Shown: positions 9,951 through 35,488 of the stretch, one piece after another
Numbering within the stretch: position 1 is the stretch's first letter
Layout: every line of letters starts with the position of its first letter
Assembly: GCF_009797025.1 (NCBI RefSeq)
Contig: NZ_CP047027.1
Location: 3,906,001-3,970,000 of the forward strand
Source: Cellulophaga sp. L1A9
Lineage (GTDB): Bacteria; Bacteroidota; Bacteroidia; Flavobacteriales; Flavobacteriaceae
Direction of reading: 5' to 3'
DNA: 64,000 nt
Notes under the pieces: generated by a model
Told to the model about the DNA's origin: nothing
The model's database searches: none
The model's input: only the letters and a program-made list of their open reading frames with translations
Made by a program: the position numbers and the translations under genes

Positions 9951-10733
9951 TTAGGACACCTCTAATTTCGATAAATAATTATTATTTAGCCCAGATTTGA
10001 TGAAGAATTTAAATTCTTCATCAAATCTGGGCATGAATTCTTTAGGTGATATATTACCTAAAGATTTATGCGGGTGATTAAAATTATAGTCTTCTCTCCA
10101 GTTGTCGCTTATTTTTTGAAGTTGATAAATGTCATTGAAATAATAGGCATCTAATATATCCTCCCTAAAGAAACGGTTAAATCGTTCTATATATCCATTT
10201 TGCATTGGCTTTCCCGGTTGGGTATATTTAATTTCTATAAAGTTCTTTTTACACCAGTTCATAAAAGTCTTAGAGATAAACTCCGGGCCATTATCACATC
10301 TTACATATTTGGGTATTCCTATTTCCTCTTTTAGGCATTCAAGAGTTTCTACAACAGCTCTTGCTGGATAAGAAAGTCCTGCGTCTATTGCTAGAGCTTC
10401 CCGATTACAGTCGTCTATAACATTAAACACTCTGAGCTTTCTACCATCAGTAAGGGCATCGCTCATAAAATCCATACTCCAACACTCATTTAATGTTAAA
10501 GGTGTTTCTAAAGGTTGTTTTATACGTTTAACCAAACGTTTTTTATGTTTACGGCGCAGACTGAGTTTCATCTCACGGTACACACGTAACACTCGTTTTC
10601 TGTTCCATTTTAAGCCTTCACGACGGATCTTATAATAATATTCATCAAAACCTCTAGTTGGGTATGATTCCGCTAACGCTGTTAGCTTATCAATAACCTC
10701 ACTATCATCTTTCTTACTTTGGTAATACCACAT
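9951..10733 (-). CDS. IS3-family transposase OrfB (DDE integrase domain)
   Basis: From the first ATG 260 residues are seen, but the open frame extends upstream to about 10857 in the -1 frame of orfA and adds ...SDKRVRVKYLIKRFVIP...GLSRS before MWYYQSKK, so the natural product is the OrfAB fusion made by frameshifting. The catalytic triad is present: D in WSMDFMSD, D in VRCDNGPEFIS, and E in NGYIERFNRFFRE. The helix-turn-helix_21 region RRKHKKRLVKR precedes it. The stop codon lies inside the terminal inverted repeat, typical for compact IS3 elements. Confidence 0.93.
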   Translation of the reverse strand: MWYYQSKKDDSEVIDKLTALAESYPTRGFDEYYYKIRREGLKWNRKRVLRVYREMKLSLRRKHKKRLVKRIKQPLETPLTLNECWSMDFMSDALTDGRKLRVFNVIDDCNREALAIDAGLSYPARAVVETLECLKEEIGIPKYVRCDNGPEFISKTFMNWCKKNFIEIKYTQPGKPMQNGYIERFNRFFREDILDAYYFNDIYQLQKISDNWREDYNFNHPHKSLGNISPKEFMPRFDEEFKFFIKSGLNNNYLSKLEVS

Positions 10734-12959: not shown

Positions 12960-13511
12960 TTATGTTTTTATGGCATCCCAAACCATTTGTAGCTGGTTAG
13001 AGTTGGTGCTAGCGTTGGTATTCGCTTGCTTAAAATACCATCTTAAATAAGAAAATACAGAACCACCAATAAATTGTAGAAGTTCATCGGTTTCAATAGG
13101 CTTTATTATACGTTTTTCTTTTCCTTTTTGTAATAAATCAGTAACGGGTAATACAGCTTTATATCCTGCATTTCTACTTCCTATTGTAATAATAGGAGAG
13201 GCTTGTAATTGCTCCATAAAGTTAAAATAGCTGGGATTTTTAATAAAAAAGTCGATTAAAGCAGTATAATACACTTCAAATTGAGTTTTTATGGGCTGCT
13301 CCGTACTTAAGGCAAGAAACGTATTTTCTTCCTTATTTTTTATATCAACGTAAATTTCATTGATTAAAGCATCCTTGTCAGGAAAGTAATTGTAGATCGT
13401 TCCCATTCCTGTACCCGCCTCTTTTGCAATGGCAGAAACAGGGGTATTATGAACTCCCTTTTCTATTAGAAGTTTTAAGGTTGCCTCAATAATTTGTTGT
13501 CTCTTACTCAC
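12960..13511 (-). CDS. TetR/AcrR family transcriptional regulator
   Basis: 183 residues. The N-terminal DNA-binding helix-turn-helix is typical: RQQIIEATLKLLIEKGVHNTPVSAIAKEAGTGMGTIYNYFPDKDALINEIY at residues 4-54. The rest is the helical ligand and dimer domain. The start is GTG at 13509-13511; the downstream residues are needed for the fold and no ATG is closer. Its promoter lies so close that the mRNA would be almost leaderless. It is followed by a degraded SDR gene, so this regulator may have lost its main target and persist as an orphan. Confidence 0.92.
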   Translation of the reverse strand: MSKRQQIIEATLKLLIEKGVHNTPVSAIAKEAGTGMGTIYNYFPDKDALINEIYVDIKNKEENTFLALSTEQPIKTQFEVYYTALIDFFIKNPSYFNFMEQLQASPIITIGSRNAGYKAVLPVTDLLQKGKEKRIIKPIETDELLQFIGGSVFSYLRWYFKQANTNASTNSNQLQMVWDAIKT

Positions 13512-13515
13512 AAAA

Positions 13516-13549
13516 CAAACGTAGGTGTTTTTGGAACAGGTATTCCAAA
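13516..13549 (-). promoter_or_regulatory. tetR promoter with a 20-bp operator palindrome
   Basis: On the minus strand: TTG (13546-13548), 22 nt, TACGTTTG (13516-13523). Between and overlapping the -33 half lies TTTGGAACAGGTATTCCAAA (13530-13549), with perfect 7-bp arms TTTGGAA/TTCCAAA and a 6-nt centre. Size and position are those of a TetR autoregulatory operator. The -7 box ends only 4 nt from the GTG start. Confidence 0.6.
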
Positions 13550-13604
13550 TTATAGCTATAACTATTTTTTTAAATTATTCTGAAAAGCTTTAATAAAAGA
13601 GAAC

Positions 13605-14174
13605 TTATACTACCTGCCGTTCTAGAGCCAAGTAATGTGTAGTTTCTGCGGTATATAAAGGGATAATTTTTATTTCACATTTATATGGAGATTTGTCTTT
13701 GCGGTAGTTGGTAATAATTTCAGTAAACGGTTTATTTGTTTTTAACTTTGTATTGATGTTAGACTTTACTGCTGGAGTGGTTTCTTTGCCTTGCAGGAAG
13801 GCTGGTGTTTGGTTTATTGCGAATTTTTTAGAGTACCCAGTCATATCAGAAAAACCATCGCTCACCCAGACTATTTTCTTTTTTAAATCGGTAATAACAA
13901 GTGCTTCAAATTCTTGATTTTCAAAAAGTGCTGAAATGTCATTTTTCCAATGTAATTTTTTTGCAATTTTTTCAAATTCTCTTACTGCAGTTTCTTTTTT
14001 AGATTGTAAGGATAGGTTGTAGAAGTTATTAATGTGCATATCCCAACTTAGTAGTGGTGCCATAGCTCCTTTTTTTGCCGGTTTTATTCGGGGTGCAACC
14101 TTTTTGTTTTCTTCTTCTGTTAATGATGACAGATAAATATCTAAACACATCATTTGATCCATTTCTTTTTTCAT
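13605..14174 (-). CDS. PAS-domain protein, LOV-like but without the flavin cysteine
   Basis: 189 residues, no signal peptide. Residues about 85-188 form a PAS domain with strong LOV resemblance: ALVITDLKKKIVWVSDGFSDMTGYS, then the FLQGK motif at 126-130, and NYRKDKSPYKCEIKIIPLY. In true LOV photoreceptors the motif is NCRFLQG with a photoactive Cys; here that position is Pro124 (TPAFLQG). So flavin adduct photochemistry is not expected, although ligand binding may remain. Residues 1-80 are helical and unassigned. No output domain is present, so it must act through a partner. Last gene of the VOC-pirin-DUF695-PAS cluster, 33 bp after DUF695. Confidence 0.85.
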   Translation of the reverse strand: MKKEMDQMMCLDIYLSSLTEEENKKVAPRIKPAKKGAMAPLLSWDMHINNFYNLSLQSKKETAVREFEKIAKKLHWKNDISALFENQEFEALVITDLKKKIVWVSDGFSDMTGYSKKFAINQTPAFLQGKETTPAVKSNINTKLKTNKPFTEIITNYRKDKSPYKCEIKIIPLYTAETTHYLALERQVV

Positions 14175-14207
14175 TTTCTTTTTCTTTTTCTGTTTTGATA
14201 TTTTAGG

Positions 14208-15314
14208 CTAAAGATACTTATTATAGGTTTGCCAATATTTATCTTTATATATCTCAAAATCGAAGCTAATTTTTTCTTTATTTTCTTTCTGTATTCGGTC
14301 AAATAATTTAGCTGGTTTTCTAAAATCATAACAAGAGAAATAAATTTCTCTCGTAGCATTTGCCGTTTCTCTGCCGATATTGATATAGCCGTCAGAATCT
14401 TTTAATTCTAACATGATAGCATCTTCTAGCGTATTTAATAAATCATACATTTTATCATTAGGCATTCCATTATGGCTGTCTCCATCAAACTTAAAAATAG
14501 CAATGGCTACCCATGGATGGGAAGCCTTGGCATTCCACTCTAAAATATCAGTATTTATGGTGGCTATAATAGGGAGTCCATTTTTTAAGGTGCCATTAAA
14601 GCTTGAGTAGTTATCTTTTAGGGTATTGTGACGTATACCTTCATATTTTTCAATAAATTCTTTTTCTCGCCATATTAAAAAATCTTTTAATTTTTCTAAT
14701 GGGATAATTTCTTTTTCAGCGTCTTTTGTATTCTTAAAATTTATATGATCTATTGTGGTTACGCAATTTAACTCTCCTAAATAATTATCTAAAAGTAGGT
14801 AAGCGCCATGCGAAATTTCCGATTCATTTTCATTAGTATATTCCTGATGGAGGATGGTAATTTCTATTTGATCTGGCATTTCAGGATTTTCGTCTGCATA
14901 GAAACTCATGGTCTCTTCACTAAATGTATACCCATTCATTTTAATTCCAAAAGTACTAGAGGTACTGGGTTGCTTTAATGCCGTAATTTTCCATTTTTCA
15001 ATAACTGGTGCTGCTGCGACGAGGTCTTCTACAAACGGAATATTTCTTAAATTTCCGTCGGCTGTTAAAATTAATTCCGCCGTATTATCATCAGTCATGC
15101 CCGTTAAATACCAGAAAGTATTTTCTTTTACTTCATTTAATTTTGGACCTAAAACATCAAAAAAATTCTTTTCAATAGCATCACCTTTTTTAATTGCCTT
15201 ATAAAATTCTTTTTCGTGCCTTTGAAACCATGTCCAAAATTCTTGGTATGTACCTTCTGCTGTTTCTGAAGTAACGGCTTCCTTTTTATGAAATAAAGAT
15301 TTTAAAAAACTCAT
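14208..15314 (-). CDS. DUF695 domain-containing protein
   Basis: 368 residues, soluble, no signal peptide. The N-terminal half (FWTWFQRHEKEFYKAIKKGD... FDVLGPKLNEV) and the KWKITALKQP segment resemble proteins annotated with DUF695. The C-terminal half carries the usual DUF695 pattern: PNDKMYDLLNTLEDAIM, then DGYINIGRETANATREIYFSCYDF at about 312-335. Function unknown. It starts 3 bp after the pirin stop and lies 33 bp before the PAS gene, so all four genes from VOC to PAS are probably one transcript. Confidence 0.8.
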   Translation of the reverse strand: MSFLKSLFHKKEAVTSETAEGTYQEFWTWFQRHEKEFYKAIKKGDAIEKNFFDVLGPKLNEVKENTFWYLTGMTDDNTAELILTADGNLRNIPFVEDLVAAAPVIEKWKITALKQPSTSSTFGIKMNGYTFSEETMSFYADENPEMPDQIEITILHQEYTNENESEISHGAYLLLDNYLGELNCVTTIDHINFKNTKDAEKEIIPLEKLKDFLIWREKEFIEKYEGIRHNTLKDNYSSFNGTLKNGLPIIATINTDILEWNAKASHPWVAIAIFKFDGDSHNGMPNDKMYDLLNTLEDAIMLELKDSDGYINIGRETANATREIYFSCYDFRKPAKLFDRIQKENKEKISFDFEIYKDKYWQTYNKYL

Positions 15315-15317
15315 AAA

Positions 15318-16313
15318 CTATTTTTCTATAATACTTCCATCCGGATATTTAGCAAATCTACCTTTGGTTTTGTCATGAACATTAGCCGCATCTGGCCAAG
15401 GCCATCCACCAAATTGCGTTCGTTGGTATTCTTCCATGGCTTGTTGGATTTCTTCGTCAGAATTCATAACAAAAGGGCCATATTTAGCAACGGGTTCATC
15501 AATAGGTTTTCCTTGTAACATAAGAAAATGTGCATTTTTTCCGCGTACTAGTATTTCAAGTGATTCTAAAGCATCAATACTAATCCCATGATTAGGAGTA
15601 ATTGTTCGCCCTTCAATTTCTATTGTGTCACCCTCATAAAAATACAAAATTCTAGATACATCGCTTTTTGCCTTTGGTAAAGTATAGGTACTGCCTGCAT
15701 CTACATGAATATTCCAAATAGCAACGTCATTAGCTATAGCTGCAGCCCAAGAATTTGGTGCAGGAGCTAAAGCTTCTTGAGTATTATAGTTTCCTGCAAT
15801 TACTTTTACAGTACTCGTTTCTGTTCTAACTATGGGTAGTTCTTCATGCCAGAGCATCGAAAAATGAGGTGCTACAAACTTGTTTTTTTGCGGTAAATTA
15901 AGCCAGATTTGAAACATTTCTAGCGGATTTTCTTTGCCTGTATTGAGTAGCGGAAACATTTCTGAATGTTGTACGCCACTACCTGCTGTCATCCATTGTA
16001 CATCTCCCATCCCAAAACGACCCGCAGTTCCTAAAGAATCAGAATGGTCACAAAACCCCTTGTTCACAATAGTTATAGTTTCAAAACCACGGTGTGGATG
16101 TGCAGGAAAACCAGGAACCGTTTTTCCATGATACATGCGCCAACCATCTTTTAGTGTAAAATCATTTCCTAAGGTTCTGCCTTCTAAAGATGCTTTAGGC
16201 CCCATTTGGGCGTTGCCTTCAGGATAATGATCTGCATGATATACACAGAATAAAAAAGGATCTTCCGTTTGCCAAGGGAAGCCTAGCGGGAAAACAGATT
16301 TTATTTTAGCCAT
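15318..16313 (-). CDS. pirin family protein
   Basis: I take the ATG at 16311-16313 (MAKIKSVFPLGFPW), 331 residues; the longer frame to 16349 would run into the VOC gene. Two-domain cupin typical of pirins. The metal-binding motif is intact: HPHRGFETITIV around residue 70, and GVQHSEMFP around residue 118, giving the three His plus one Glu. The C-terminal domain (FLMLQGKPIDEPVAKYGPFVMNS) is also typical. Pirins are iron proteins, some with quercetinase activity, others redox-sensing co-regulators. It begins 5 bp after the VOC stop and ends 3 bp before the DUF695 start. Confidence 0.93.
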   Translation of the reverse strand: MAKIKSVFPLGFPWQTEDPFLFCVYHADHYPEGNAQMGPKASLEGRTLGNDFTLKDGWRMYHGKTVPGFPAHPHRGFETITIVNKGFCDHSDSLGTAGRFGMGDVQWMTAGSGVQHSEMFPLLNTGKENPLEMFQIWLNLPQKNKFVAPHFSMLWHEELPIVRTETSTVKVIAGNYNTQEALAPAPNSWAAAIANDVAIWNIHVDAGSTYTLPKAKSDVSRILYFYEGDTIEIEGRTITPNHGISIDALESLEILVRGKNAHFLMLQGKPIDEPVAKYGPFVMNSDEEIQQAMEEYQRTQFGGWPWPDAANVHDKTKGRFAKYPDGSIIEK

Positions 16314-16318
16314 GATAC

Positions 16319-16762
16319 TTAATGTTTTGCATCGTTTATTTCTATCCAATAACCTTCTGGATCTGTTATGTAGATCTGTTGAACGCCATCTGCACGTAAA
16401 GTAATTGCACTTTTAGTACCTGGCCAATCCTCATAAGAAATCTTATTTTCTTCTAAGTTTTTTATAAATGCGTCTAGCTTTGATGTGGATAGGCATATGT
16501 GACTAGACTTGTGTTTTTTCATAACTACATCTTCCTTATAAATTAAATGCAATTGTGTATTTCCTTGAATAGAAAACCATCGGAAACCAGGATCTTTGGT
16601 AGGATGATCAATCTCTTTAAGGCCGATAACTTTTTGATAGAAGTCTCCCGTAGTTTTTAAATCCGTTACAATTAATGTTGTATGATCAATTGTGAAGTCA
16701 AATTTCTGAGCGTTGCTTATGGTAACAACAAACAATACCACGAAGAAGAATAGTTTTTTCAT
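16319..16762 (-). CDS. secreted VOC-family (glyoxalase-fold) protein
   Basis: From ATG 16760-16762 the protein has 147 residues and starts with a clear signal peptide, MKKLFFFVVLFVVTISNAQ; the longer frame to 16792 would spoil it. The rest is one vicinal-oxygen-chelate module pair: FTIDHTTLIVTDLKTTGDFYQKVIGLKEI (His as first metal ligand), LHLIYKE, HICLSTSKLDAFIKNLEENKI and QIYITDPEGYWIEIND (Glu ligand). Related proteins include glyoxalase I and dioxygenases; substrate unknown. A periplasmic location is unusual for the superfamily but common in Flavobacteriaceae. First gene of the four-gene operon with pirin. Confidence 0.88.
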   Translation of the reverse strand: MKKLFFFVVLFVVTISNAQKFDFTIDHTTLIVTDLKTTGDFYQKVIGLKEIDHPTKDPGFRWFSIQGNTQLHLIYKEDVVMKKHKSSHICLSTSKLDAFIKNLEENKISYEDWPGTKSAITLRADGVQQIYITDPEGYWIEINDAKH

Positions 16763-16917
16763 TAAAAGAATTTTGACACCTAAGTTACCCAAAAAATATA
16801 TAATTAAGGCTACGGGTGTTACAATCCTTAATGTAATGGATTATTTTTATTAAGTTAACCTAGCGTTCATATTGGAGTAATGGTGTATTCTTATCATTGT
16901 AGGTTTAAACAACTAAA

Positions 16918-19900
16918 ATGAATCGTTTTTTTTGCTTCCTTTTTTTACTTTTCTCTTTTACAAAGCTTTTAGCGCAACAAATAAAATTTGAAAATTTTAC
17001 TACAGATGATGGCCTTTCTAATAACTCTGTAATTGATGTTGAGAATGACGAAAATGGTGGTCTTTGGATTGCTACCCTTGATGGGTTGAATTATTTTGAT
17101 GGACATACTATCACATACTACAAACATGGGATTAATGAAGAAGGGACCATACCAGGAAACTATATCATAAACCTTGAAAAAGATAAGTATGGTACCCTTT
17201 GGTTGATAACTAAAGAAGGGCATGTAAGTAGGTACATAGGGAATTCTACTTTTGAAAATTTTAAATTTAATATAGCACCACAACAAATAAAACTAGCTGT
17301 AGATGGTACTTTATTCGTTTTTGTAGCTAAAACAGCCTACAAATTTGAAAACGGAAAATTTGTTGTAGCTGCATATACGCCTCCGGAGAAGGAGAATTAC
17401 GAGAACTTAAAACAAATACTGCTAAATGAGTACCCAGGCTTAATTATAAATGATATTTTAAAAGACAATGTTGGTAATATATGGTTTGCAACGCGTAGAG
17501 ACGGACTTTTTATTCTTCCCAATGATATAAATAATATTGATAATAAAAGAATAGACCATTATACATATGATGTGTATACTCCCTATAGTTTTAATAGCAA
17601 CGAAATAGAAAAATTGCATCAAGATCTTTTTGGTAATGTATGGCTTGCGCAAAAAGATGGAGGTTTGAGTATGGCATATACGGGGTCAGAGAAGATTAAT
17701 TCCGTAATTCCGCATCCAGTAAATTATCCACATTTGCCTAATGAAACCATTCGCGCGATCACAAAAGATTATACCTCTAATATATGGCTGGGGTATTATA
17801 CCAAGGGAATTTATTATTATGACAATACAACAAAATGCTACCTAAAGTTTAAAGTAAAAGAAGCTACGCAAAATAGTGATTGGGAACGGATACGTAATTT
17901 ATATACCGCTAGTGACGGTAGTATTTGGGTGGGTACCTATGCTGGAATATTGCGTATAAAGGGTGATGGCTATACCACTTATGATGCGGATCTAATTCCC
18001 GAACTCCCTAATAACCGCAGTTATTCCATGTTTGAAGATACAGAAAAGCAATTATGGATAGCTTGTTGGGGTGGTTTGGCAAAATTCAATGTACAAAAAA
18101 ACCTATTTGAAAAGTTTAAAGGCCAGAAACAATTTGATGCGTTTAATATTAGAAGCGTCACTAAAAATGGTGCTGAAATTAGTATTGGTACAGAAGAAAA
18201 TGGAGTGTTGTTTTTTAACACCACAACAGGAACAGTAGAAAATATTACCAAAGATGATGGTATTCTTGGAAACAGTATATATGCTATTTATAAAGATGAA
18301 TTAACTCCAAACTATTGGATTGCTTCGCTAGGCGGAATTAGTGTTTACAACAAGGCTACTAAAGCAATTAAAAATATTACCGAAGAAGATGGACTGCCGA
18401 GTCATATGGTGTACGGACTCCTAAAAAATAAAGAACAGATTTGGGCAAGCACTACTAAAGGAATTGCAGTAATAGACACCAATAGCTTTGAAGTAAAGGC
18501 TTTTAACCCAAAGGAAGGTTGGCAAGCTCCAGAATTCTCAGAAGGTGCTTATTATCAAGATAACAAAGGGCTTATGTTCTTTGGAGGGGTTAACGGATTA
18601 AATTATTTTAACCCGAATACGATATTAAATAGAACGGTGGCCGCAAAGATCAAGGTTGTAGTAGATGGTGATGAAAATTATAAAAAAAATATGGAAAGGA
18701 AGTTTAGGGATAATAGCTTAGAAATTAATATTATTCCCATTAAATTCCCTAATACGAGCGATGCTGAAATTTACTATAAACTTTCAGGAAAAGATGAGAG
18801 TTGGAATTTAGTATCAAGAGACCATACCATAAAGTATGCTAACCTTTCTTCAGGAGAGTATACTTTTCACGTAAAAGAAGGCAGTGATGAAAAAGTGGAG
18901 ACGCTTTCCTTTAACTTAAAAATTAAGAAAGCTTTTTATGAAACAATATATTTCTATGTACTTCTCCTTTTTATACTATTGATTAGCGCCTTTTTAATTA
19001 TTTATTTTAAGAGTAAAACAGCATTGGCGCAGCAGAAAAAACTAGAAAATCAAATAAGTGCTAGAACACAGGTTATAGAAAATCAAAAGAAAGATTTAAT
19101 AGCCATAAACACCTTACTTGATGATAAGAATAAAGAGATTGTACTTCAGAAAGAAAAGTTACTTACCGTTCATAACAATTTAAAAAATGAAGCTTTTGAG
19201 ATAGAAAAGTTTAAAACTTTTGTTTTGTCTGAGTTTCAAAATCCTATTTCTAAAATTATAACATTATCTAATGCGTTAAAAGGGAATACTAATATTCAGC
19301 ATGATTTGCTGAGGGAAGCAGGGAAATTGGTAAACTTAGTATCAGAATGGAACTACCTAGATCATGTAAAAGATATTGGAAGTACTAAAACCACAGCGGT
19401 TAATCTCGCCGATCTTTTAAGAGGTAGTATAGAAAAACTCAAAAATAATTTACAAACGAATAAAGTTAATCTTAATACCGAATTTGATAGTTCTTTGTGT
19501 TGGGTTGCAGTAGATGTATTGCGCTTGCGCTTACTATTGCAGTACTTGTTTAATGACATGGCAAAGTATGCTGATACTTCAAGTACAATTAACATCATTG
19601 TTAGAACTAGAAATAGTCTCTTAGAAATTTGTATACATTCCAATAGTAGTGTATTAAGTAATAATTGGTATAGTATTTCACATTATAGTCCTTATTTTAA
19701 GGCTGTTAAGATTATTTTAAATGATTTAAAAGGTACTTTTAAAGAAGATGTTAACGATGAGTTTTCCCTTGCCCTTCAAATTCCAGTTGAAAGTATTGAT
19801 ACTGATAAAAAACAAATAGAGAATGTTACGTGGAAGTATTTAGACCAACAAAAAGAAGTACAACCTGGTAAAAAGCTTCTTTTGGTGTTTGGTGATGCTA

Positions 19901-20634
19901 AAAATTTTAGTGTAGCAAACCAAATTCTAGAAAATGTAAACTATCAACTTTTCTTTGAAAATAATGTGGATAATTTTGTTTCTGCAGTACATCAGATGAC
20001 CATAGATGCTATTGTATTTTACCAAGCTACATTTTCAAAAGAATTAGTGCACTACTTAAAAGGGCTAGTAAATAACCCTTCTAGAAAGAGAGAGATACCT
20101 ATGGTGTATATTTCGGAAGATATTAATTACGAATTGCAAGAACAGTCTGTAGAATTTGGCATTGATGTAGTTATACAATTACCGGCTAGTGAACGGTTTA
20201 TTATAAAGAAAATAGCTAGTTTAATAGGGAAGCAAGAAGAATCTACAACACATAAATTACAGCAAGAGATCTTTCAGATTCTTTCGGACGATGCCGATTT
20301 AGATTCTCCGAATGATAAGCTACTCAAAAACAGTTTAACCATTATCAAAAAGGAACTTTCTAACGCTTCTTTTAATGTAGAAATGTTAGTAGAGCAGTTG
20401 GGTATATCACGAGTAAAATGCTACCGAATCTTTAAAGAATTACTAGGGCAATCTCCATCTGATGTTATTACTTCTTTGCGATTACAAAAGGCAGAAGCAT
20501 TACTGAAAACTAAAAAATTTAATGTATCTGAAATTAGCTTTGAATGTGGATATAACGATCCCAAATATTTTGGCCGTTCTTTTAAAAAGTATTATGGCGT
20601 GAGTCCCAAAGAATTTAAAGAACAATTAGTATAA
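16918..20634 (+). CDS. one-piece sensor regulator (HTCS-like) with degenerate kinase and receiver, AraC output
   Basis: 1238 residues. Signal peptide at 1-20; periplasmic two-component-regulator propeller repeats over about 25-590 (many copies of the type DxxGxLWxxTxxG); Y_Y_Y domain at about 590-670; one membrane span near 676-698 (FYVLLLFILLISAFLIIYF); coiled coil; histidine-kinase-like part at about 760-960; receiver-like part at about 985-1100; AraC-type helix-turn-helix at 1130-1238 (two HTH motifs, ending FGRSFKKYYGVSPKEFKEQLV). The expected phosphotransfer residues are missing: the H-box reads VLSEFQNPI with Ser771 in place of His, the ATP-binding glycine boxes are not visible, and the receiver Asp is Tyr1035. 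It lies 178 bp upstream of susC and should be its activator. The ligand is probably a product of the phosphoesterases; this is inference. Confidence 0.9.
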   Translation: MNRFFCFLFLLFSFTKLLAQQIKFENFTTDDGLSNNSVIDVENDENGGLWIATLDGLNYFDGHTITYYKHGINEEGTIPGNYIINLEKDKYGTLWLITKEGHVSRYIGNSTFENFKFNIAPQQIKLAVDGTLFVFVAKTAYKFENGKFVVAAYTPPEKENYENLKQILLNEYPGLIINDILKDNVGNIWFATRRDGLFILPNDINNIDNKRIDHYTYDVYTPYSFNSNEIEKLHQDLFGNVWLAQKDGGLSMAYTGSEKINSVIPHPVNYPHLPNETIRAITKDYTSNIWLGYYTKGIYYYDNTTKCYLKFKVKEATQNSDWERIRNLYTASDGSIWVGTYAGILRIKGDGYTTYDADLIPELPNNRSYSMFEDTEKQLWIACWGGLAKFNVQKNLFEKFKGQKQFDAFNIRSVTKNGAEISIGTEENGVLFFNTTTGTVENITKDDGILGNSIYAIYKDELTPNYWIASLGGISVYNKATKAIKNITEEDGLPSHMVYGLLKNKEQIWASTTKGIAVIDTNSFEVKAFNPKEGWQAPEFSEGAYYQDNKGLMFFGGVNGLNYFNPNTILNRTVAAKIKVVVDGDENYKKNMERKFRDNSLEINIIPIKFPNTSDAEIYYKLSGKDESWNLVSRDHTIKYANLSSGEYTFHVKEGSDEKVETLSFNLKIKKAFYETIYFYVLLLFILLISAFLIIYFKSKTALAQQKKLENQISARTQVIENQKKDLIAINTLLDDKNKEIVLQKEKLLTVHNNLKNEAFEIEKFKTFVLSEFQNPISKIITLSNALKGNTNIQHDLLREAGKLVNLVSEWNYLDHVKDIGSTKTTAVNLADLLRGSIEKLKNNLQTNKVNLNTEFDSSLCWVAVDVLRLRLLLQYLFNDMAKYADTSSTINIIVRTRNSLLEICIHSNSSVLSNNWYSISHYSPYFKAVKIILNDLKGTFKEDVNDEFSLALQIPVESIDTDKKQIENVTWKYLDQQKEVQPGKKLLLVFGDAKNFSVANQILENVNYQLFFENNVDNFVSAVHQMTIDAIVFYQATFSKELVHYLKGLVNNPSRKREIPMVYISEDINYELQEQSVEFGIDVVIQLPASERFIIKKIASLIGKQEESTTHKLQQEIFQILSDDADLDSPNDKLLKNSLTIIKKELSNASFNVEMLVEQLGISRVKCYRIFKELLGQSPSDVITSLRLQKAEALLKTKKFNVSEISFECGYNDPKYFGRSFKKYYGVSPKEFKEQLV

Positions 20635-20779
20635 CGTATTGTATTGTCAAGATTATGGCAATGTTAGCAAATTGTTAGTGAAACAAAAGTGCGCTTATTT
20701 CTTGTTTTTAACCCCCTAATTTGAATGTTTTATCCTCCTTTTCGAAACAATAGTACCCCCTCAAGGGCATCGCTTAAAA

Positions 20780-20787
20780 TACATTTG
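20780..20787 (+). promoter_or_regulatory. -7 element of the susC operon
   Basis: TACATTTG matches TANNTTTG and stands 25 nt before the susC ATG. No TTG occurs 17-23 nt upstream; this lack of a -33 element is what one expects at a promoter needing an activator, here probably the AraC-type regulator encoded just upstream. The intergenic stretch 20635-20779 is free of other recognisable signals except short C- and G-tracts around 20710-20770. Confidence 0.5.
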
Positions 20788-20811
20788 ACACAAACCAAAA
20801 TAGATATTTAA

Positions 20812-23800
20812 ATGAAAAAAATGTACTTATTGTTGTTGCTCGCATTTGGAGTAATTAGTATGACCAATGCGCAAATCTCCGTAAAGGGAAATGTTGTTTC
20901 AAGCTTAGATGGTATGCCGGCTCCGGGCGTTTCTGTCACTGTAAAGGACCAGAAAATTAGTGGAACGGCAACTGATTTTGATGGTAATTTTTAGTATTAA
21001 TTTACAAGAAGAAAACGGAATATTAGTATTTTCTTCTATCGGCTACGCTACTAAGGAAGTAGCTTATAGTGGGAGTCAAATGCTAACTGTTTCTTTAGAT
21101 GAGGAAACAAGTGCGCTAGAAGAAGTAGTGTTAATTGGCTATGGTTCTTCTAAGAAAGGAGATTTAACATCCGCAATTTCTACTGTAAGTAATGTAGAAA
21201 GTATTGCTTCTAGGCCAGTAGCTAGTTTAACGGATTTCTTACAGGGTAATGTTGCAGGGGTTACCGTACTGCAACAGGGTGGTGATCCATCACAAAGTGG
21301 AAGTATAGTAATAAGAGGCTTGGGCTCTTTCGCTAGTGAACAACCCTTAACGGTTGTAGATGGTGTTCCATATTACGGTCCGGCGATTAATCCTAATGAT
21401 ATTGCTTCGGTATCTATTCTAAAAGATGCGGCTGCAGCAGCAATTTATGGCGCACAAGCAGCATCAGGAGTCATCGTAATTCAGACTAAAAAAGGAAAAA
21501 TTGGGAAGCCAAGAATCGCTGTAGATTTTTATAGTGGAATTCAAGAAGCTACAAATTTACCGACACCTTTAACAGCGCAAGAACAATCGGCAACTTACAA
21601 TCTAGCAGCAGATAATGGAGGTTCTCCAAGACAATCTGCTCACGATGCATTACAAAATCCTTACGGACAGGTAAATCGTACGAATTGGATAGATGCAATT
21701 TTTAGACCAGCCAAAATAGTAAACACCAACATTAACTTAAGTGGCGCTACGGAGAAAATGAATTATTTAACTTCTTTTGGATATACTAAGAGAGAAGGTT
21801 TGCTTGAAGGGACCAGTTCAGAGCGTTTTAATTTTAGAGTGAAATCAGACATGGATTTATCTGATAAAATAAATATTGGAGAAAATGTATATTTCTCTAG
21901 AACAGAAGCGTTAGGTACAAATACAGACAACCCATATTCTGGTACCATTATCAATGCAATTTATATGCCTTCATCGGCACCTATCTATTATGAGGATGGT
22001 AGTTTTGCAGGAGTTGCTCCAGAGAATCTTTCGCAATTTGCAGGGGCTTATGGAGATGTTTATAATCCTTTAGCTTTATTGATACGTCCAACAGTGACAG
22101 CACCAACCAATTTTATTAATGCCAATGTGTATGCCAAATATAAAATAGTAAACGGTTTATCTTTTAAAACCAGTTATGCGTATAGCTATACACAATCAGA
22201 CTCTAAAAGGTTTCAGCCTAGTGTTCCTGAATTGGGCAGGTCTAATCCAAATAACTACCTAAATCAGAATACATCCACTACAAACCGTTGGGTATGGGAC
22301 AATCAAATAGCCTACAAACAATCTTTTGGAAATCATAACCTTGATATTACAGCCATTTATTCTGCCCAGCATACAGATTATGAGTCTTTAGCTGTACAAG
22401 GGGAAGGGTTTAGCAATGAAGAACCGTTTAATCAATACCTATCAAATGCGTCTGTTATTCGTAATCCTGGAACTGGAGTTTATGAAGATGCACTTACTTC
22501 TGCTATTGGTAGAGTAATGTATAATTTTAAAAATAGATACTTTATCTCAGGAGCTATCCGTAGAGACAGAACTTCGCGTTTAGCGGTAAACAACCAAGTA
22601 GATAATTTTCCTTCAGCTACTTTAGGTTGGCGTTTGAGTGATGAGTCTTTCTTCAATGTTCCAGCGGTAAATGATTTAAAGTTTAGAGCTTCTTGGGGGC
22701 AAATAGGGAATATTAATTCTGTAGGATATTATTCTTTTGATGTACCCTTAAATAGTACAACGGTTATTTTAGGAGAAAACGCAGCCCAAGATTATAAAGG
22801 GGCTTATGTAGGGAAGCAATCTAATCCTAATTTAAACTGGGAAATTTCTGAGTCTATAGATTTAGGTATGGATGCATCTTTGTTTAATAACAGCTTGAGC
22901 TTAACTTTTGATTACTTCCAAAAAACCACAAAAGGAATGATTTTACCGGGTTTAGAAGATTTGAATCAAGGAACTAGTGCTGCAGATGTAAATGGTGGAG
23001 AAGTACAAAATTCAGGGTATGAAATTGCAGCAAGCTATTCCGATGCTCTTGGCGATGTAAACTTTACGATAAATGCAAATGCTAGCATCTTAGACAATGA
23101 GTTGATAAACTTAGAGGGCTATAATAAAAGCGGAATCAATTTTATTGCACATGATGATGATGTTCGTCAAGTATTAAGACCATTCCGTTCCGAAGTAGGA
23201 AGATCATTATATTCCATGTATTTAGTTCCACAATTGGGAATATTTCAAAATCAAGCAGAGATTGATGCACATACAAAAGAGGGCACTTTGATTCAGCCAA
23301 ATGCGGTACCCGGAGATTTCAAATTTGCAGACAGTAATGATGATGGCAAGATAGACGATGAGGATAAAGTTTTTTATGATAGCTATCAACCAGATGTTAC
23401 GTATAATTTTGGTTTAAACTTAAACTACAAAAATTTTGATATTAATATGCTCTTCCAAGGTGTTGCTGGTGTAGATGTATTCAATGGATATAAGTTTACC
23501 ACCTACAATGCTTCGTTAACAGGGTATAATTTAGACAATCGTGTCTTAGGAGCTTGGTCTCCATCAAACACAGATTCTGATATACCAAGAATTTCTACAA
23601 AAGATGACAATAAGAATTTTGGAACAACGTCTAGTTACTATTTAGAAGATGCTTCTTATTTGAGAATGAAAAACATCACGCTAGGGTACACTTTAGACGC
23701 TAGTATAATGAATACAATAGCAAAAGGTTCTTCTTTACGCATCTACTTATCCGCAGAAAACATTTTTACAATTACGAAGTATTCAGGATTAGATCCAGAA

Positions 23801-23878
23801 GTAGGAGGTAAGGGATTAGATGTTGCCAAATATCCTCTTTCTAGAACAATCACTGCTGGTTTATCACTATCTCTTTAA
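20812..23878 (+). pseudogene. susC: SusC/RagA-type TonB-dependent outer-membrane transporter, frameshifted
   Basis: The first 60 codons (20812-20994) give a signal peptide (MKKMYLLLLLAFGVISMTNAQ) and the start of the carboxypeptidase-D-like domain, VKGNVVSSLDGMPAPGVSVTVKDQKISGTATDFDGNF, then TAG. Removing one T from the run of five at 20988-20992 gives DGNFSINLQEENGILVFSSIGY, and the rest follows in frame to 23878: TonB-type motif, plug domain with VDGVPYYGP and NDIASVSILKDAAAAAIYGAQAASGVIVIQTKKG, and a full 22-strand barrel ending TAGLSLSL. Corrected length is 1020 residues, normal for SusC. The rest of the gene shows no decay. Either a recent +1 insertion, a sequencing error, or, less likely, a +1 programmed shift at TTT TAG. 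The partner SusD gene follows 16 bp later. Confidence 0.88.
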
Positions 23879-23894
23879 TAAAAAAACGACAAAA

Positions 23895-25487
23895 ATGAAA
23901 AATAGATTTAAAGAATTATTCATATTTACGATAGCTATTGCAGGTCTTGGTTTAGCTAATTCTTGTTCTGAAGATTTCACAGAAGTTTCTCCTTTAGGAA
24001 GTACTTCATATGCAAATTTCTGGAAGACAGAGCAAGATGCACAAGAAGCAGTAAATAGTATGTACGATTACATGAGCGACCAAGAAATGTTTTCAAGAGG
24101 GTTCTTTTGGTACATCAATGCATCCGACGATATGGTTACCGGGCGCATAAAAGCAGCTGCAGACAATATTAAAGATTTTAATATTACGGGAGGAGAAGGG
24201 AGTTATACTTCTACATGCTATCCAAACAGTTATAAGGTAATTAGAAGAGCTAATGATGTGATTTTAAATGTTCCAAATATGGAAATTAGCGAGACTTTAA
24301 AAAATCAGTATTTGGGGGAAGCTTATTTTATGCGTGCGTTTAGTTATTTCTGGGTAGCACATACGTATGGGGATAACGGACCTAATGGGGGTGTTCCAAT
24401 CGTTACAGAACTTAATATGAATGATGATGCAGGTAGCTATACAAGACCTGCAAGTGTAATAGAAAACTACCAACAGATAGAAGATGATTTAAAAATGGCA
24501 GTAGATCTTTTACCTGTTTTTACTTCCTATAGTGCAGATGATTATGGTCGACCTCATAAAGATGCAGCGCTAGCTTACATAGCTAAAACCAATTTATACT
24601 GGGCACAATATGATAACAGTAGGTATGCAGAGGTCGTTAAATTTGCAGATGCTGTGGCTAATTCAGGTTCAGGGAGAGCTTTAATAGATACAGATCATCC
24701 AGAAAAGGATTTCCGCGAACTGCATAGTCATTTGAACAATTGGGGGAGCGAATATATTTGGTCTGTAGATTCAGGCGTAGATGGAGGTAGCATCTTAACG
24801 GGTGTTATGCTAGAAAACAAAGGTTGGGGAAAGTACAATGGTTGGGGGTATTATACGCCTTCCGAAGGATTGTATAATGAATTTGAAGATGATGATGTTA
24901 GAAGAGGGGTTACTATTTTAAATTTTGGAGACGATTTTACCTATTTCGGAGAGGAAAAGAGATATCAATCAGAAAATTCAAATTCAGGTTTTCAATTTAA
25001 TAAATACATGTATGAGTTTCAATTTGAAAATCCTGTTGGGACTTATTTAAATACAAACGGTGATAATCCATCTACCGTTTATAATGTGCCACTGATGCGC
25101 TATGCTGAGGTTTTATTAATGAAGGCTGAAGCACTTATTGCAGATGGTAAGAATGGAGATGTGCCTTTAAATTTGGTACGAGAAAGAGCAGGTTTGGCTC
25201 CAAAAAGTAATGCTACATTGGAAGATCTGAAGCATGAACGCCGTGTGGAGTTAGCAGGTGAATTTGCGAATAGACATTTTGACTTAGTACGTTGGGGAGA
25301 CGCAGAAGAAGCTTATAGTAAGCCTATTTATGGAAGAATTTATTCGGATAGATCTAATCCAGATTCTCCGTATACATCGGAAGTGATATGGCCGGCAAGA
25401 AATTTTGACCCTTCTTATATGCAGGTATGGCCAATTCCTGCTACGGTAATTCAATCTTCAGGAATAGCTCCAAATCAAGGTTGGTAA
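23895..25487 (+). CDS. susD: SusD/RagB-family outer-membrane lipoprotein
   Basis: Start at ATG 23895 (MKNRFKELFIF), 530 residues; the longer frame to 23820 lies inside susC. Lipoprotein signal with Cys in ANSCSEDF. SusD pattern: FWKTEQDAQEAVNSMYDYMSD (about 40-60), LKNQYLGEAYFMRAFSYFWVAHTYGD with the TPR-type helices, VPLMRYAEVLLMKAEAL, LNLVRERAGL, LKHERRVELAGEFANRHFDLVRWGDAEEAY and a C-terminal VWPIPATVIQSS. SusD caps the SusC barrel on the cell surface and binds the substrate. Substrates are usually glycans, but the neighbours here are phosphoesterases. A hairpin follows the gene. Confidence 0.94.
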   Translation: MKNRFKELFIFTIAIAGLGLANSCSEDFTEVSPLGSTSYANFWKTEQDAQEAVNSMYDYMSDQEMFSRGFFWYINASDDMVTGRIKAAADNIKDFNITGGEGSYTSTCYPNSYKVIRRANDVILNVPNMEISETLKNQYLGEAYFMRAFSYFWVAHTYGDNGPNGGVPIVTELNMNDDAGSYTRPASVIENYQQIEDDLKMAVDLLPVFTSYSADDYGRPHKDAALAYIAKTNLYWAQYDNSRYAEVVKFADAVANSGSGRALIDTDHPEKDFRELHSHLNNWGSEYIWSVDSGVDGGSILTGVMLENKGWGKYNGWGYYTPSEGLYNEFEDDDVRRGVTILNFGDDFTYFGEEKRYQSENSNSGFQFNKYMYEFQFENPVGTYLNTNGDNPSTVYNVPLMRYAEVLLMKAEALIADGKNGDVPLNLVRERAGLAPKSNATLEDLKHERRVELAGEFANRHFDLVRWGDAEEAYSKPIYGRIYSDRSNPDSPYTSEVIWPARNFDPSYMQVWPIPATVIQSSGIAPNQGW

Positions 25488-25515
25488 AAGCAACACTTTT
25501 TATATATTTTAATTT

Positions 25516-25548
25516 GAAAAGGTGCATACTCACTGGTTGCACCTTTTC
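25516..25548 (+). terminator. hairpin terminator or attenuator between susD and the phosphatase genes
   Basis: An 11-bp perfect stem (GAAAAGGTGCA at 25516-25526 with its complement at 25538-25548) and an 11-nt loop, followed by TTAATTTTT. It lies between susD and the phosphodiesterase-phosphatase gene 17 bp further on, where it would lower but perhaps not abolish read-through; such hairpins after susD are common and set the excess of SusCD over enzymes. Confidence 0.75.
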
Positions 25549-25564
25549 TTAATTTTTAGATTTT

Positions 25565-27361
25565 ATGTTTTTATTAAAAAGAATCGTTTGGATCGTTGTT
25601 TTCTTTATAACAATAGCTTCCTACGGACAAGAAAAAAATGCTGTTTTAATTCATTCTCATAATGACTACGAACAAAGTGTACCTTTTTGGACTGCCTTTT
25701 CAAATGGATTAAATAGTATAGAGGTTGATGTTTATTTAAACGATAAATCTTTAAACGTAGCACACACAGAAGCAGAAATAGATGCTGAACGTACTCTTGA
25801 AAAATTATATTTAGAACCTTTAAATACAGCTATCGAAAATAAAATTGGTACAGTACAGCAACTGATGTTGATGATAGATGTAAAGTCTGATGCAGTAGCA
25901 ACTTTGGATGCAATTATTGAGAGTTTAAAAAAGTATCCCAAAATAATAGAACATCCTGAGGTGAAGATTGTTATTTCTGGAAATAGGCCAGAAGCTGAAA
26001 ACTATAGAAACTATCCGGAATTTTTATTTTTTGATCATCAAAAAATCACACATAATTTAAGTGATGAGAATTGGAAAAAAGTAGCTATGGTAAGTACAAG
26101 TTTTAAGCAGTATTCTCACTGGAATGGTAAAGGAAGGCTTACCCATGAAGATTTAGAAAAGGTAACAAATGTGGTAGCGCAAGCAAAGAGTTTAGGAAAG
26201 ACTTTTAGGTTTTGGGCAACACCAGATTCAAAAACGGCATGGCGCACCTTTGTAGATCTAGGGGTAGATGTGATCAATACCGATGCTATTTATGAGTGTT
26301 CTAAATATGTTCGCAGTCTAGATTCTCGGATTCATAAAGCTACTATTTTTTCAGAGGTTTATAGTCCAAATTTCAAATCAGACAATAGAGATAAGCCTAT
26401 AAAAAATATTATTTTGATGATTGGTGATGGCACGGGTTTATCACAAATTTCAGCGGCTGCTTTAGCGAATAAAGGGGAACTTACCTTAACACAATTAAAA
26501 AGTATGGGCTTTGTGAAAACGCAAGCTGCTGATGATTTTACGACGGACTCTGCAGCAGGTGCTACTGCTATGGCCACGGGAGAAAAAACAAACAATAGAG
26601 CAATAGGTACAGATAGTAAGGGTAAACCAATCCCTAATATCATAGAAATTCTTTCTAAAAAAGGATATAAAACGGGAATAATTACTACTGATGAAATTAC
26701 AGGTGCTACTCCGTCTTCTTTTTATGCCCACCAAATAGATAGGTCAGAGACCTTGGCTATTGCAAAAGACCTAATTTCTAGTCCATTAAACTTTTTCGCT
26801 GGTGGTGGAAAATCTACTTTCAATACGTTACCAATAGCTTCAAATTTTTCTATAATTAATCAATTGAATGAGTTAAGTAATCAGAAAGTGGCAAAAGTTG
26901 GCTTTTTTCTCTCGGAAAATGGAGTGCCTTCAATGAGCAACGGAAGAGGGAATCTACTCGCAGAAACAACCAAAGAAGGAATTTCTTTTTTATCAAAAGA
27001 TGACACCCCATTTTTCTTACTAGTAGAAGGAGCTCAAATAGATAGTTTTGGCCATTATAATGATATTGTAGGACTCATTTCTGAAGCAATTGATTTTGAT
27101 ACCGCTATTACGGAAGCTATAAAGTTTGCAGATCGTGATGGAGAAACCTTAGTGGTAATTACAGCAGACCATGAAACATCTGGGTTGAGTTTACTTGACG
27201 GAGATATGAATACCAATAAAATTGAAGCTGATTTTGCATCACATGATCATACCGGAGTTATGGTTCCCATTTTTGCTTATGGTCCAGGTTCAGGAAAATT
27301 CCAAGGAGTCTATGAGAATACCGCATTGTTTTCAAAAATTATTAATGCCTTAAATAAATAA
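25565..27361 (+). CDS. secreted GDPD/PI-PLC-like phosphodiesterase fused to alkaline phosphatase
   Basis: 598 residues, signal peptide about 1-21 (ending SYGQ). Residues about 25-265 form a TIM-barrel phosphodiesterase of the GDPD/PI-PLC superfamily: LIHSHNDYEQ (His30, His32), SIEVDVYL (Glu53, Asp55), NVAHTEAE (His67), MLMIDVKSD, and FRFWATPDSKTAWRTFVDLGVDVINTD. Residues about 275-598 are a PhoA-type alkaline phosphatase: LMIGDGTGLSQISAA, TTDSAAGATAMATGE with the nucleophile Ser329, EGAQIDSFGHYND, ITADHETSG and ASHDHTG, so all metal ligands are visible. The two activities fit a sequence: split a phosphodiester, then remove phosphate from the monoester. It should act in the periplasm or at the surface. 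It is followed 10 bp later by another phosphoesterase gene. Confidence 0.93.
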   Translation: MFLLKRIVWIVVFFITIASYGQEKNAVLIHSHNDYEQSVPFWTAFSNGLNSIEVDVYLNDKSLNVAHTEAEIDAERTLEKLYLEPLNTAIENKIGTVQQLMLMIDVKSDAVATLDAIIESLKKYPKIIEHPEVKIVISGNRPEAENYRNYPEFLFFDHQKITHNLSDENWKKVAMVSTSFKQYSHWNGKGRLTHEDLEKVTNVVAQAKSLGKTFRFWATPDSKTAWRTFVDLGVDVINTDAIYECSKYVRSLDSRIHKATIFSEVYSPNFKSDNRDKPIKNIILMIGDGTGLSQISAAALANKGELTLTQLKSMGFVKTQAADDFTTDSAAGATAMATGEKTNNRAIGTDSKGKPIPNIIEILSKKGYKTGIITTDEITGATPSSFYAHQIDRSETLAIAKDLISSPLNFFAGGGKSTFNTLPIASNFSIINQLNELSNQKVAKVGFFLSENGVPSMSNGRGNLLAETTKEGISFLSKDDTPFFLLVEGAQIDSFGHYNDIVGLISEAIDFDTAITEAIKFADRDGETLVVITADHETSGLSLLDGDMNTNKIEADFASHDHTGVMVPIFAYGPGSGKFQGVYENTALFSKIINALNK

Positions 27362-27371
27362 AAGAATTGTC

Positions 27372-28862
27372 ATGAAAAAACGATTAATACCATTATTTTT
27401 TCTTCTAGTTATGTATTCTTTCGGTCAGAAAATAAGTGGAACTGTTTTTTTAGACGAGAATAAGAATGGGACTTTTAATGGAACTGAAAAAGGACTTCCC
27501 AATATTTTGATAAGTAACGGAAAAGATATTGTTGTTTCTGATTTTAATGGAGCGTATACTATTAACGCTATTCCAGGTAATTTAGTGTTTGTAATAAAAC
27601 CGTCAGGCTATATTTCAGAACTAAATGAATTGAATATTGTACAGTCGTATTTTCATCCTTTAAAAGAGAACATTAAGGATTATGACTTTGCATTATATGC
27701 GCATACAGAGAATAAAAAAACCAAAGTAGCACTTTTAGGAGATGTACAAGTAGATGTTATAGATGATGTGCACCATGTTGGAAAATTGGTAACAGAAGAA
27801 TTGGTTTATAATAGACCAGATTTTATAATGCCGTTAGGAGATTTATCTTTTGATAACCTTGAAATATTTGATCCACTAGCGGCTGTTTTAGGTTTAGTCG
27901 GTTGTCCTGTTTTTTATGTAATTGGCAACCATGATTTGAATTTTGAAGCCACAACTTTGAGTGATAGAGATGCTAGTTTTGAAGCTAAATTTGGGCCTTC
28001 ATATTATGCTTTTGAATATGGAGATAATTTATTTTTGGTTTTAAATAATATCAGCCCTTTACCTGAAGGGAAGTACAAAGCACAAATCGATAGTGATCAG
28101 TTAGAATTTATAAAAAACCTTATCGCTTTAAAGAATGATAAGTACAAAGCAATCAATATTGCTATGCATATTCCTTTTGATGAAGTTAGTAATAAGGATG
28201 CTTTACTAAAGCTACTGCGTCCTTTTGATGATGTTTTTATTACTGCGGGTCATACACATACCCAATATCATAATTATTATAACAGAGCATTACAGAAAAC
28301 TGCAATACATGAATTGGTTTGTGGAGCAGTTTGTGGTTCGTGGTGGCAAGGATCACATGATTTGAGAGGTATCCCATTTTCTATTATGCATGATGGTACG
28401 CCTAAAGGGTATTGGTTTATGAATGTGGAAGGAAATAAACGTGAACTTCAATATAAAGTTTCAGGAGCACCCGCAACCAAGCAAATAAATATATGGGTGC
28501 CTGAAGTTAATGAGTGGGATAAATCATTAAATGAATTGAACGAGCCTTTTGTCTATGCTAATGTTTTTGCGGCAGATGAAAATACTGAAGTAGAAATTAA
28601 TTTTGGGGATAACCAATGGTTGTCAATGGATAAACATGAAGGAGTTGCACCAGAATTAAAACGATTGTACAAACTCCAAGTTTTAGGCCGTTATAAAGGT
28701 CAGCCTATTAGTGCATTTCCAGAGACAGTTAAAAATAGTAAACATTTGTGGCGTATGGCTATTCCAGAAAACATGAAGGAAGGTGCTCATTTAATACAAG
28801 TAAGAGCAACGAATTCTAATTTGCTATTAAATGTACGGGAGAGTAGCGTATTATGGAGGTAA
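27372..28862 (+). CDS. secreted calcineurin-like phosphoesterase with MetallophosN and MetallophosC domains
   Basis: 496 residues; signal peptide MKKRLIPLFFLLVMYSFGQ. Residues 20-95 form a beta-sandwich MetallophosN domain (GTVFLDENKNGTFNGTEKGLPNILISNGKDIVVSDFNGAYTI). Residues about 115-310 are the catalytic domain: LLGDVQVD, PLGDLSFD, VIGNHDLNFE, IAMHIPF and AGHTHTQYH, the complete set of metal-binding motifs of the calcineurin-type family. Residues about 340-496 are the MetallophosC domain (GTPKGYWFMNVEG... SSVLWR). Proteins of this architecture hydrolyse phosphomonoesters or diesters; the exact substrate is not predictable. Last gene of the SusCD phosphoester locus, translated 10 bp after the fusion enzyme. 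Confidence 0.92.
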   Translation: MKKRLIPLFFLLVMYSFGQKISGTVFLDENKNGTFNGTEKGLPNILISNGKDIVVSDFNGAYTINAIPGNLVFVIKPSGYISELNELNIVQSYFHPLKENIKDYDFALYAHTENKKTKVALLGDVQVDVIDDVHHVGKLVTEELVYNRPDFIMPLGDLSFDNLEIFDPLAAVLGLVGCPVFYVIGNHDLNFEATTLSDRDASFEAKFGPSYYAFEYGDNLFLVLNNISPLPEGKYKAQIDSDQLEFIKNLIALKNDKYKAINIAMHIPFDEVSNKDALLKLLRPFDDVFITAGHTHTQYHNYYNRALQKTAIHELVCGAVCGSWWQGSHDLRGIPFSIMHDGTPKGYWFMNVEGNKRELQYKVSGAPATKQINIWVPEVNEWDKSLNELNEPFVYANVFAADENTEVEINFGDNQWLSMDKHEGVAPELKRLYKLQVLGRYKGQPISAFPETVKNSKHLWRMAIPENMKEGAHLIQVRATNSNLLLNVRESSVLWR

Positions 28863-28908
28863 TGTTGTCGCTTTTTAGATCCCTAATTATTTTTTTAAAT
28901 GGGAATTT

Positions 28909-29319
28909 TTAAATTAAGTCCATTTCTAAAATAATAAAATCAATGCCTGCTTCCGTATAGGTCTTGTCGGTTTCTCTTAATCCAAATTTTTTGTAATAAC
29001 GGGTCTTATTAGCTCTTGCATTGCACCACAATTTTTTAGCTTTTTTTTGCTTTGCATAAGCAATTATAAAATCTAGAAGTTTAGAAGCATGGCCTTTGCC
29101 TTGCTCAGATTCTAGTGTAGCCAGTTTGCGAAATTGGGCTATACTATCTTCAAAAAATAACGAAACTACCGTCACATTTTTTCCATCATGCACTACAGCA
29201 AAGTGCTTTCCTTCTTGGTCTTTTGGTAATTTTATATAGTCAAAAGGATGGTTAGGATACATGACCTCATGCCGAAGTGGATACGTTTCTTCTGCGGTAA
29301 TTTCTTTTATTTCAATCAT
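28909..29319 (-). CDS. GNAT-family N-acetyltransferase
   Basis: 136 residues, one compact GNAT domain. Motif A is LATLESEQGKGHASKLLDFIIAYAKQ (about residues 66-92) with the Q/RxxGxG/A acetyl-CoA loop as QGKGHA; motif B follows as KLWCNARANKTRYYKKFGLRETDK. Acceptor unknown. The start is 1 bp after the stop of the TIM-barrel gene upstream, so the two are translationally coupled. It converges with the phosphoester locus; 28863-28908 holds no clear terminator. Confidence 0.9.
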   Translation of the reverse strand: MIEIKEITAEETYPLRHEVMYPNHPFDYIKLPKDQEGKHFAVVHDGKNVTVVSLFFEDSIAQFRKLATLESEQGKGHASKLLDFIIAYAKQKKAKKLWCNARANKTRYYKKFGLRETDKTYTEAGIDFIILEMDLI

Positions 29320-33611: not shown

Positions 33612-33646
33612 AAAAAAGCTTCATAACTCGTTATGAAGCTTTTTTT
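33612..33646 (+). terminator. bidirectional terminator between the DUF2911 and symporter genes
   Basis: Perfect 15-bp stem (33612-33626 with 33631-33645) around the loop CTCG, with A and T tracts on both sides. It ends the DUF2911 transcript and, on the other strand, its edge touches the stop codon of the symporter gene (33646-33648), so it works for both convergent genes. Confidence 0.9.
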
Positions 33647-35385: not shown

Positions 35386-35386
35386 A

Positions 35387-35488
35387 TTACCTATTTCCTG
35401 TCATGATGAAGTAAAATATTATGATGTAAATAATATTCAATATTAACACTACAGAATATTCATTTTTCCAAGTAAATTTATTTTCCAT
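35387..35488 (-). CDS. 33-residue single-span membrane microprotein
   Basis: Start ATG 35486-35488, stop TAA 35387-35389. The product begins MENKFTWKNEYSVVLILN and continues with a hydrophobic stretch rich in Ile and Tyr (IIYIIIFYFIM), ending TGNR: one membrane span with a short polar N-terminus. It is fitted exactly between the deacetylase stop (5 bp upstream) and the symporter start (1 bp downstream), with no room to be anything else, and has good start-stop spacing for coupled translation. A role as small accessory subunit of the symporter is inference. Easily missed by gene finders because of its size. Confidence 0.75.
   Translation of the reverse strand: MENKFTWKNEYSVVLILNIIYIIIFYFIMTGNR

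Follow-up and report, generated by a model that had tools for sequence, protein, structure and literature searches.

The window analysed here is a stretch of 64,000 nucleotides from Cellulophaga sp. L1A9, a member of the Flavobacteriaceae (contig NZ_CP047027.1, positions 3,906,001 to 3,970,000). It carries a locus of five genes at positions 16918..28862, all on the forward strand: a regulator derived from a hybrid two-component system (HTCS), a susC-susD pair, a fusion of a phosphodiesterase-like domain with an alkaline phosphatase, and a calcineurin-type phosphoesterase. The initial annotation had described these five genes, their strand and their positions, and the open reading frames (ORFs) together with Pfam and TIGR04056 matches confirm them.

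The regulator gene (16918..20634, +) encodes a Reg_prop/Y_Y_Y sensor and an AraC-type DNA-binding domain (HTH_18). It is followed by a putative operator (20651..20692, +), composed of 11-bp repeats of the type ATTA-N6-TGTTA-N6-TGTTA, and by the promoter-like TACATTTG (20780..20787, +), which resembles the Bacteroidota -7 element TAnnTTTG. The susC gene encodes a TonB-dependent transporter of the SusC/RagA type (TIGR04056, E 3.2e-234). It is present as annotated, with the correction that its reading frame is broken near 20.99 kb: an N-terminal piece of 60 codons (20812..20994, +) differs in frame from the main part (20945..23878, +). The susD product (23895..25487, +) has PF07980 and PF14322 matches and a lipobox-like LANSC in its translation. 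The fusion (25565..27361, +) comprises 598 residues with Alk_phosphatase (4.4e-60) and GDPD_2 (1.9e-8) matches, the phosphatase occupying approximately residues 277-598. The last gene (27372..28862, +) encodes a MetallophosN-Metallophos-MetallophosC protein (MetallophosC 1.1e-35) with a signal-peptide-like start. The intergenic gaps are short, as annotated, except for 177 bp upstream of susC, which contain both the repeat site and the promoter-like element. In agreement with the annotation, no glycoside hydrolase (GH), lyase, or sulfatase family was found in the 10 scanned of the 50 other window ORFs of at least 100 amino acids, and the five genes of the unit include no carbohydrate-active enzyme of the kind expected in a polysaccharide utilization locus.

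Both domains of the fusion look active, judging from their residues. In the first domain H32, N33, E53, D55, H67, D105, and K107 are invariant in all 38 aligned sequences, and the same holds for D288, S329, R393, E488, D493, H497, D535, H536, and H562 in the phosphatase domain. The catalytic roles of these residues, and their correspondence to those of E. coli PhoA, are assumed here. The phosphatase domain has the Ser nucleophile and metal ligands of a PhoA-type enzyme (38/38), and the first domain has the TIM barrel, two catalytic His, and acidic metal ligands of a GDPD/PI-PLC-like enzyme (H32, E53, D55, and H67 in 38/38). The best structural matches of the model of residues 1-262 (pLDDT 91.1) are GDPDs, with 2pz0 at E 3.4e-7 and a TM score of about 0.55. 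At this score the similarity applies to the fold and not to the substrate; phospholipase D enzymes also match. Sequence searches of the PDB gave no matches for the calcineurin-type protein and 22 SusD-type sequences for SusD, the best of which is named just 'SusD homolog'.

The regulator had been annotated as a one-piece sensor/AraC protein. This holds for the propeller sensor and the AraC domain, and the kinase and receiver parts between them proved to be degenerate. All 21 regulator orthologues, the window's included, have Reg_prop, Y_Y_Y, and HTH_18 and thus combine propeller, Y_Y_Y, and AraC domains in one chain, as HTCSs do. HisKA and HATPase_c are matched by none of the 21 in Pfam, and Response_reg by a single one (E 0.0014). 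Three other HTCSs tested in the window's genome, one of them split over two ORFs, match HisKA, HATPase_c, and Response_reg each at E <=1e-12. HHalign still aligns the degenerate region with those three intact HTCSs over 349 columns (probability 97.2, E 4e-11), and the region is therefore degenerate rather than unrelated. Read in the register of this alignment, the column of the phospho-accepting His contains Ser in 19/21 and Ala in 2/21, and that of the N-box Asn contains Asp in 19/21 and Glu in 2/21. The GxG ATP lid is absent in the alignments. The receiver Asp is replaced by Gln in 13/21, including the window, and by Asn in 6/21. Neither a HisKA domain with its His plus HATPase_c nor a receiver with its Asp is found in the window's regulator. 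Two Cyclobacteriaceae HTCSs, at loci L132 (31% identical) and L133 (36%), likewise have no HisKA, HATPase_c, or Response_reg matches. A single precedent comes from the available text of PMC11253607, in which BT4236 has Gln in place of the His and a phosphorylation-independent mechanism is suggested. The AlphaFold model of the kinase-receiver region is weak (pLDDT 72.4, from four sequences) and was not used as evidence.

The interval between the HTCS gene and susC of the relatives shares a motif of approximately GATTA-N6-TGTTA-N6-TGTTA-NTG-NAAC. A site matrix was built from 17 of 22 such regions, the window among them; the region of L058 was out of register from cropping. The window site scores 56.6 bits against 3.3 for the best of five shuffled 64-kb sequences, a score that is not independent since the window is part of the matrix. 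Loci outside the matrix give 39.9 bits for L024, where the HTCS stands before a swapped SusCD, and 46.2 bits for L122 (same genome as L026, also outside). L059, likewise outside the matrix, scores 46.2 bits at a second copy ahead of an inserted SusCD. Among 97 other loci scanned, five exceed 12 bits, namely L024, L059, L122, L149 (18.3), and L131 (12.1), and only the first three, all HTCS loci, exceed 20 bits. L149 and L131 are Cyclobacteriaceae loci of related SusCD in which no HTCS was detected. The longer pattern occurs in the genome once exactly, not at one mismatch, and twice at two, and nothing points to a family of such sites there. The available text of PMC3878776 describes HTCS sites of Bacteroides as direct repeats with a spacing of about 21 bp. 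Taken together, the conserved repeats ahead of susC are probably the operator of this regulator and not a shared Pho box. The 11-bp repeats were also considered as a Pho regulon box and set aside, each pattern having one exact match in the genome, at this locus. The available text of PMC3547664 gives no Bacteroidota Pho-box consensus.

The closest published counterpart of the locus is PUSII of Flavobacterium johnsoniae. According to the available text of PMC8115612 (2020), four gene clusters of this species are induced by phosphate depletion. PUSII consists of Fjoh_3252 (FecR-like), Fjoh_3251 (PusC2), Fjoh_3250 (PusD2), and Fjoh_3249 (PhoA1, pf00245 and pf13653), and is contrasted there with CAZyme loci. 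The first transcriptome values of its Table 1, taken here as log2 fold changes, are 9.88, 9.03, 8.94, and 7.40 for Fjoh_3252 to Fjoh_3249. Locus L155 of Flavobacterium tructae has the PUSII order and Pfam set, including FecR_C in SusC, with an extracytoplasmic function (ECF) sigma factor in front, and a FecR regulator is present at PUSII-type Flavobacterium loci. L155 is 41% identical to the window in SusC, 44% in SusD, and 42% in the fusion. The window SusD is only 25-29% identical to the three other SusDs of its own genome that were compared, and so lies nearer to the PUSII type than to these. In a SusD tree of 44 rows, including these three, the window falls inside a 15-row HTCS-linked clade (support 100/99). 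The PUSII-type SusDs of Flavobacterium belong to a wider 36-row group (87/99, the fork drawn open), and the three own-genome SusDs lie outside it, though on long branches.

Gene order was compared with all other full-length fusion loci, 10 from the genus and 32 from a family sample. The order HTCS-susC-susD-fusion is contiguous in 20 of these 42 loci, and the calcineurin gene then follows in 6/42. The five-gene order is also found outside the family, in the Echinicola locus L133. At a threshold of E <= 1e-80, an HTCS orthologue was detected in 13 of 299 family genomes, with the full fusion nearby in 13/13. The genome searches evaluated only a handful of initial candidates in each genome (in the family no more than 2 to 5), and absences are not proof. 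Within the genus the HTCS and the full fusion occur in the identical 11 of 18 genomes. The full fusion is commoner than the HTCS in the family (33/299). Calcineurin orthologues above 50% identity occur in 4/299, all four directly 3' of the fusion, and the remaining calcineurin matches among those listed reach at most 36% identity. At least 80 named loci were listed, 71 of them with the full fusion; SusCD is adjacent in 39/71 and within six genes in 48/71. Genome G244 has a second SusCD and a phosphatase gene between HTCS and fusion, and the inserted SusCD (L059/L121) carries a second site. Genome G014 (L024) shows a swap, with another SusCD pair, of type B, standing behind the HTCS and its site and next to the same fusion. 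A plasmid search gave no records covering 80% of the fusion.

The locus is likely a marine (Cellulophaga) version of PUSII that imports and dephosphorylates organic phosphate under an HTCS-derived regulator. The substrate class proposed in the initial annotation, organic phosphate, gains support from the match to the low-phosphate-induced PUSII (PMC8115612, available text) and from additional phosphoesterases at related loci, namely PhoX in L158 and an extra GDPD in L133. Control by the substrate through the HTCS and not by phosphate, also proposed there, is no more than a possibility, given that the published PUSII responds to low phosphate and that the regulator here lacks phosphorelay residues. 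SusD and SusC would take up an organic phosphodiester or phosphorylated conjugate after binding it at the cell surface. Once in the periplasm, the diester would be cleaved by the GDPD-like domain, the fused alkaline phosphatase would release phosphate, and the calcineurin enzyme would cleave a further phosphoester. The propeller of the one-piece regulator is predicted to sense the ligand, and its AraC domain to bind the 11/22-bp repeat site at 20651-20692 and control the operon. The signal would pass without a classical His-Asp relay.

Several observations weigh against this interpretation. The receiver Asp is retained in 2/21 orthologues, and 23/71 listed full-fusion loci lack a SusCD pair over a range of six genes. 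The GDPD match of the first domain is weak in a PDB sequence search (E 0.13). The link to PUSII was drawn from the gene order and Pfam signature seen in congeners of F. johnsoniae. L132 and L133, the Cyclobacteriaceae loci with an HTCS, have no site above 12 bits. The three-repeat pattern matches the genome once against three times for a reversed control; given this control, the pattern count alone is uninformative, and conservation carries the argument for the operator. The deposited susC differs by one base in frame from three relatives compared (region 20812-21010). Lastly, L116 (SusD 58% identical) contains SusC, a FecR gene, GH92, an alkaline phosphatase, and a calcineurin enzyme, and L117 (SusD 48-50%) contains GH92, a major facilitator superfamily (MFS) transporter, an EEP phosphatase, an alkaline phosphatase, and an MGH1/GH63-like enzyme.

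GH92 is taken here to be a mannosidase family, and a mannose-bearing ligand is possible. Since GH92 stands beside phosphatases at L116 and L117, a phosphorylated glycoconjugate is a possible ligand. The initial annotation had favoured organic phosphate esters rather than glycans, and had named as a sign to the contrary orthologous loci in which the phosphoesterases are missing or give way to carbohydrate enzymes. Carbohydrate enzymes do occur at these two loci, which goes part of the way towards that sign and weakens the exclusion of glycans, and phosphatases persist near the closest SusCD relatives. L118 and L119 (SusD 43%) have an MFS transporter beside them, and L119 has DUF5916 (neighbours scanned in part). 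In its full form the alternative gives the locus a phosphorylated glycan or glycolipid head group as its ligand, such as mannosyl phosphate or an inositol-phosphate glycan, which the phosphoesterases only trim, while the sugar is used by enzymes encoded elsewhere. The position of L116 as sister of the HTCS clade in the SusD tree (98/93) speaks for this. The constant partner in the 20 contiguous HTCS loci is, however, the diesterase-phosphatase fusion, and no GH was found among the 10 other window proteins scanned. Nor does one appear among the families assigned around HTCS loci, as far as displayed (25 of 59, for 35 of 64 neighbouring ORFs). This alternative as a whole is rather unlikely.

Control by phosphate shortage through PhoB, with the locus an ordinary member of the Pho regulon and the HTCS an accessory, is improbable. 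Repeats spaced by 11 bp resemble PhoB-type sites, which favours it, as does the low-phosphate induction of PUSII in F. johnsoniae (PMC8115612, available text). A regulon box would nevertheless recur in the genome, whereas the longer pattern has its one exact match and, at three or fewer mismatches, 17 matches against 21 for the reversed control. The restriction of sites above 20 bits to HTCS loci argues in the same direction, for this form of the repeat only. That the locus is dead in this strain owing to the broken susC frame is similarly improbable, even though the break departs from all three relatives. The remaining four genes have open frames, and the break may be an assembly indel, as L111, another HTCS gene in this genome, is likewise split over two ORFs. 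The block from susC to the calcineurin gene is also mostly 90-99% identical to two congeners. In 500-bp bins, the block at approximately 21500-29000 has 91-99% identity to congener G010 and 87-99% to G002, and the HTCS with its upstream bins (13500-20500) has only 69-86%. This identity mosaic points to an apparent exchange of the cassette from susC to the calcineurin gene that did not include its regulator.

If the locus is a marine form of PUSII, a published phosphate-scavenging system of soil bacteria extends to marine Flavobacteriaceae and Cyclobacteriaceae, and the same import-and-dephosphorylate core operates under two unrelated control modules. These two modules would allow a test between phosphorus acquisition, expected under low-phosphate control, and use as a carbon or head-group source, expected under substrate control. 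The degenerate yet conserved HTCS would also be a natural case of a fused sensor working without phosphotransfer. A broader proposal, possible though on balance doubtful, is that a conserved HTCS lineage in marine Bacteroidota lost the His-Asp relay, passes the signal from its propeller to its AraC domain purely through conformation, is devoted to a single organophosphate SusCD operon, and takes the place of ECF sigma/FecR control in soil relatives. Organic-phosphate uptake would then be induced by the substrate and not by phosphate shortage.

Elsewhere in the window, a sodium:solute symporter adjoins an 852-residue PIG-L family protein (33646-38052), and an ORF with an integrase core domain (rve), likely a transposase, lies at 9951-10733.

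Among known systems, the type-B GDPD-PhoA loci have the same fusion beside a SusCD pair, with a purple acid phosphatase near in L079. They differ in that their SusC is about 30% identical to that of the window and their SusD is distant in the tree, and only L024 and L059/L121 combine them with this HTCS. Glycerol-phosphate and inositol catabolic genes were sought beside them, and the 10 of 99 neighbours scanned show no clear theme. These include aldehyde dehydrogenase, peptidase C26, glycosyltransferase, GH1, a metalloenzyme, and metallophosphatases, and two of the ten have no family (L073 in both libraries, L082 in NCBIfam, the one library used). The HTCSs of Bacteroides polysaccharide loci, as given in the available text of PMC11253607 and PMC3878776, share the Reg_prop and Y_Y_Y sensor, the kinase-like and receiver-like regions, and the AraC domain, and also a direct-repeat site upstream of susC (PMC3878776). 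In contrast, the lineage of the window has the His and N-box Asn replaced in every orthologue and the receiver Asp in most, and lacks the ATP lid. Among the papers listed in literature searches, none was described as placing an HTCS beside an organophosphate SusCD pair. The concept of SusCD units serving organic phosphate is itself known, because PUSII has already been published. PUSII, as far as its available description goes, resembles the window in SusC, SusD, and a PhoA with an extra GDPD_2 domain (pf13653), in the same order and with the same Pfam signature. It is listed with a FecR-type regulator and pf16344 (FecR_C) in PusC2, whereas the window has an HTCS-derived regulator in its place and a calcineurin gene. 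To judge from these sequence comparisons, the core is known from a soil relative, and what appears new is the type of regulator.

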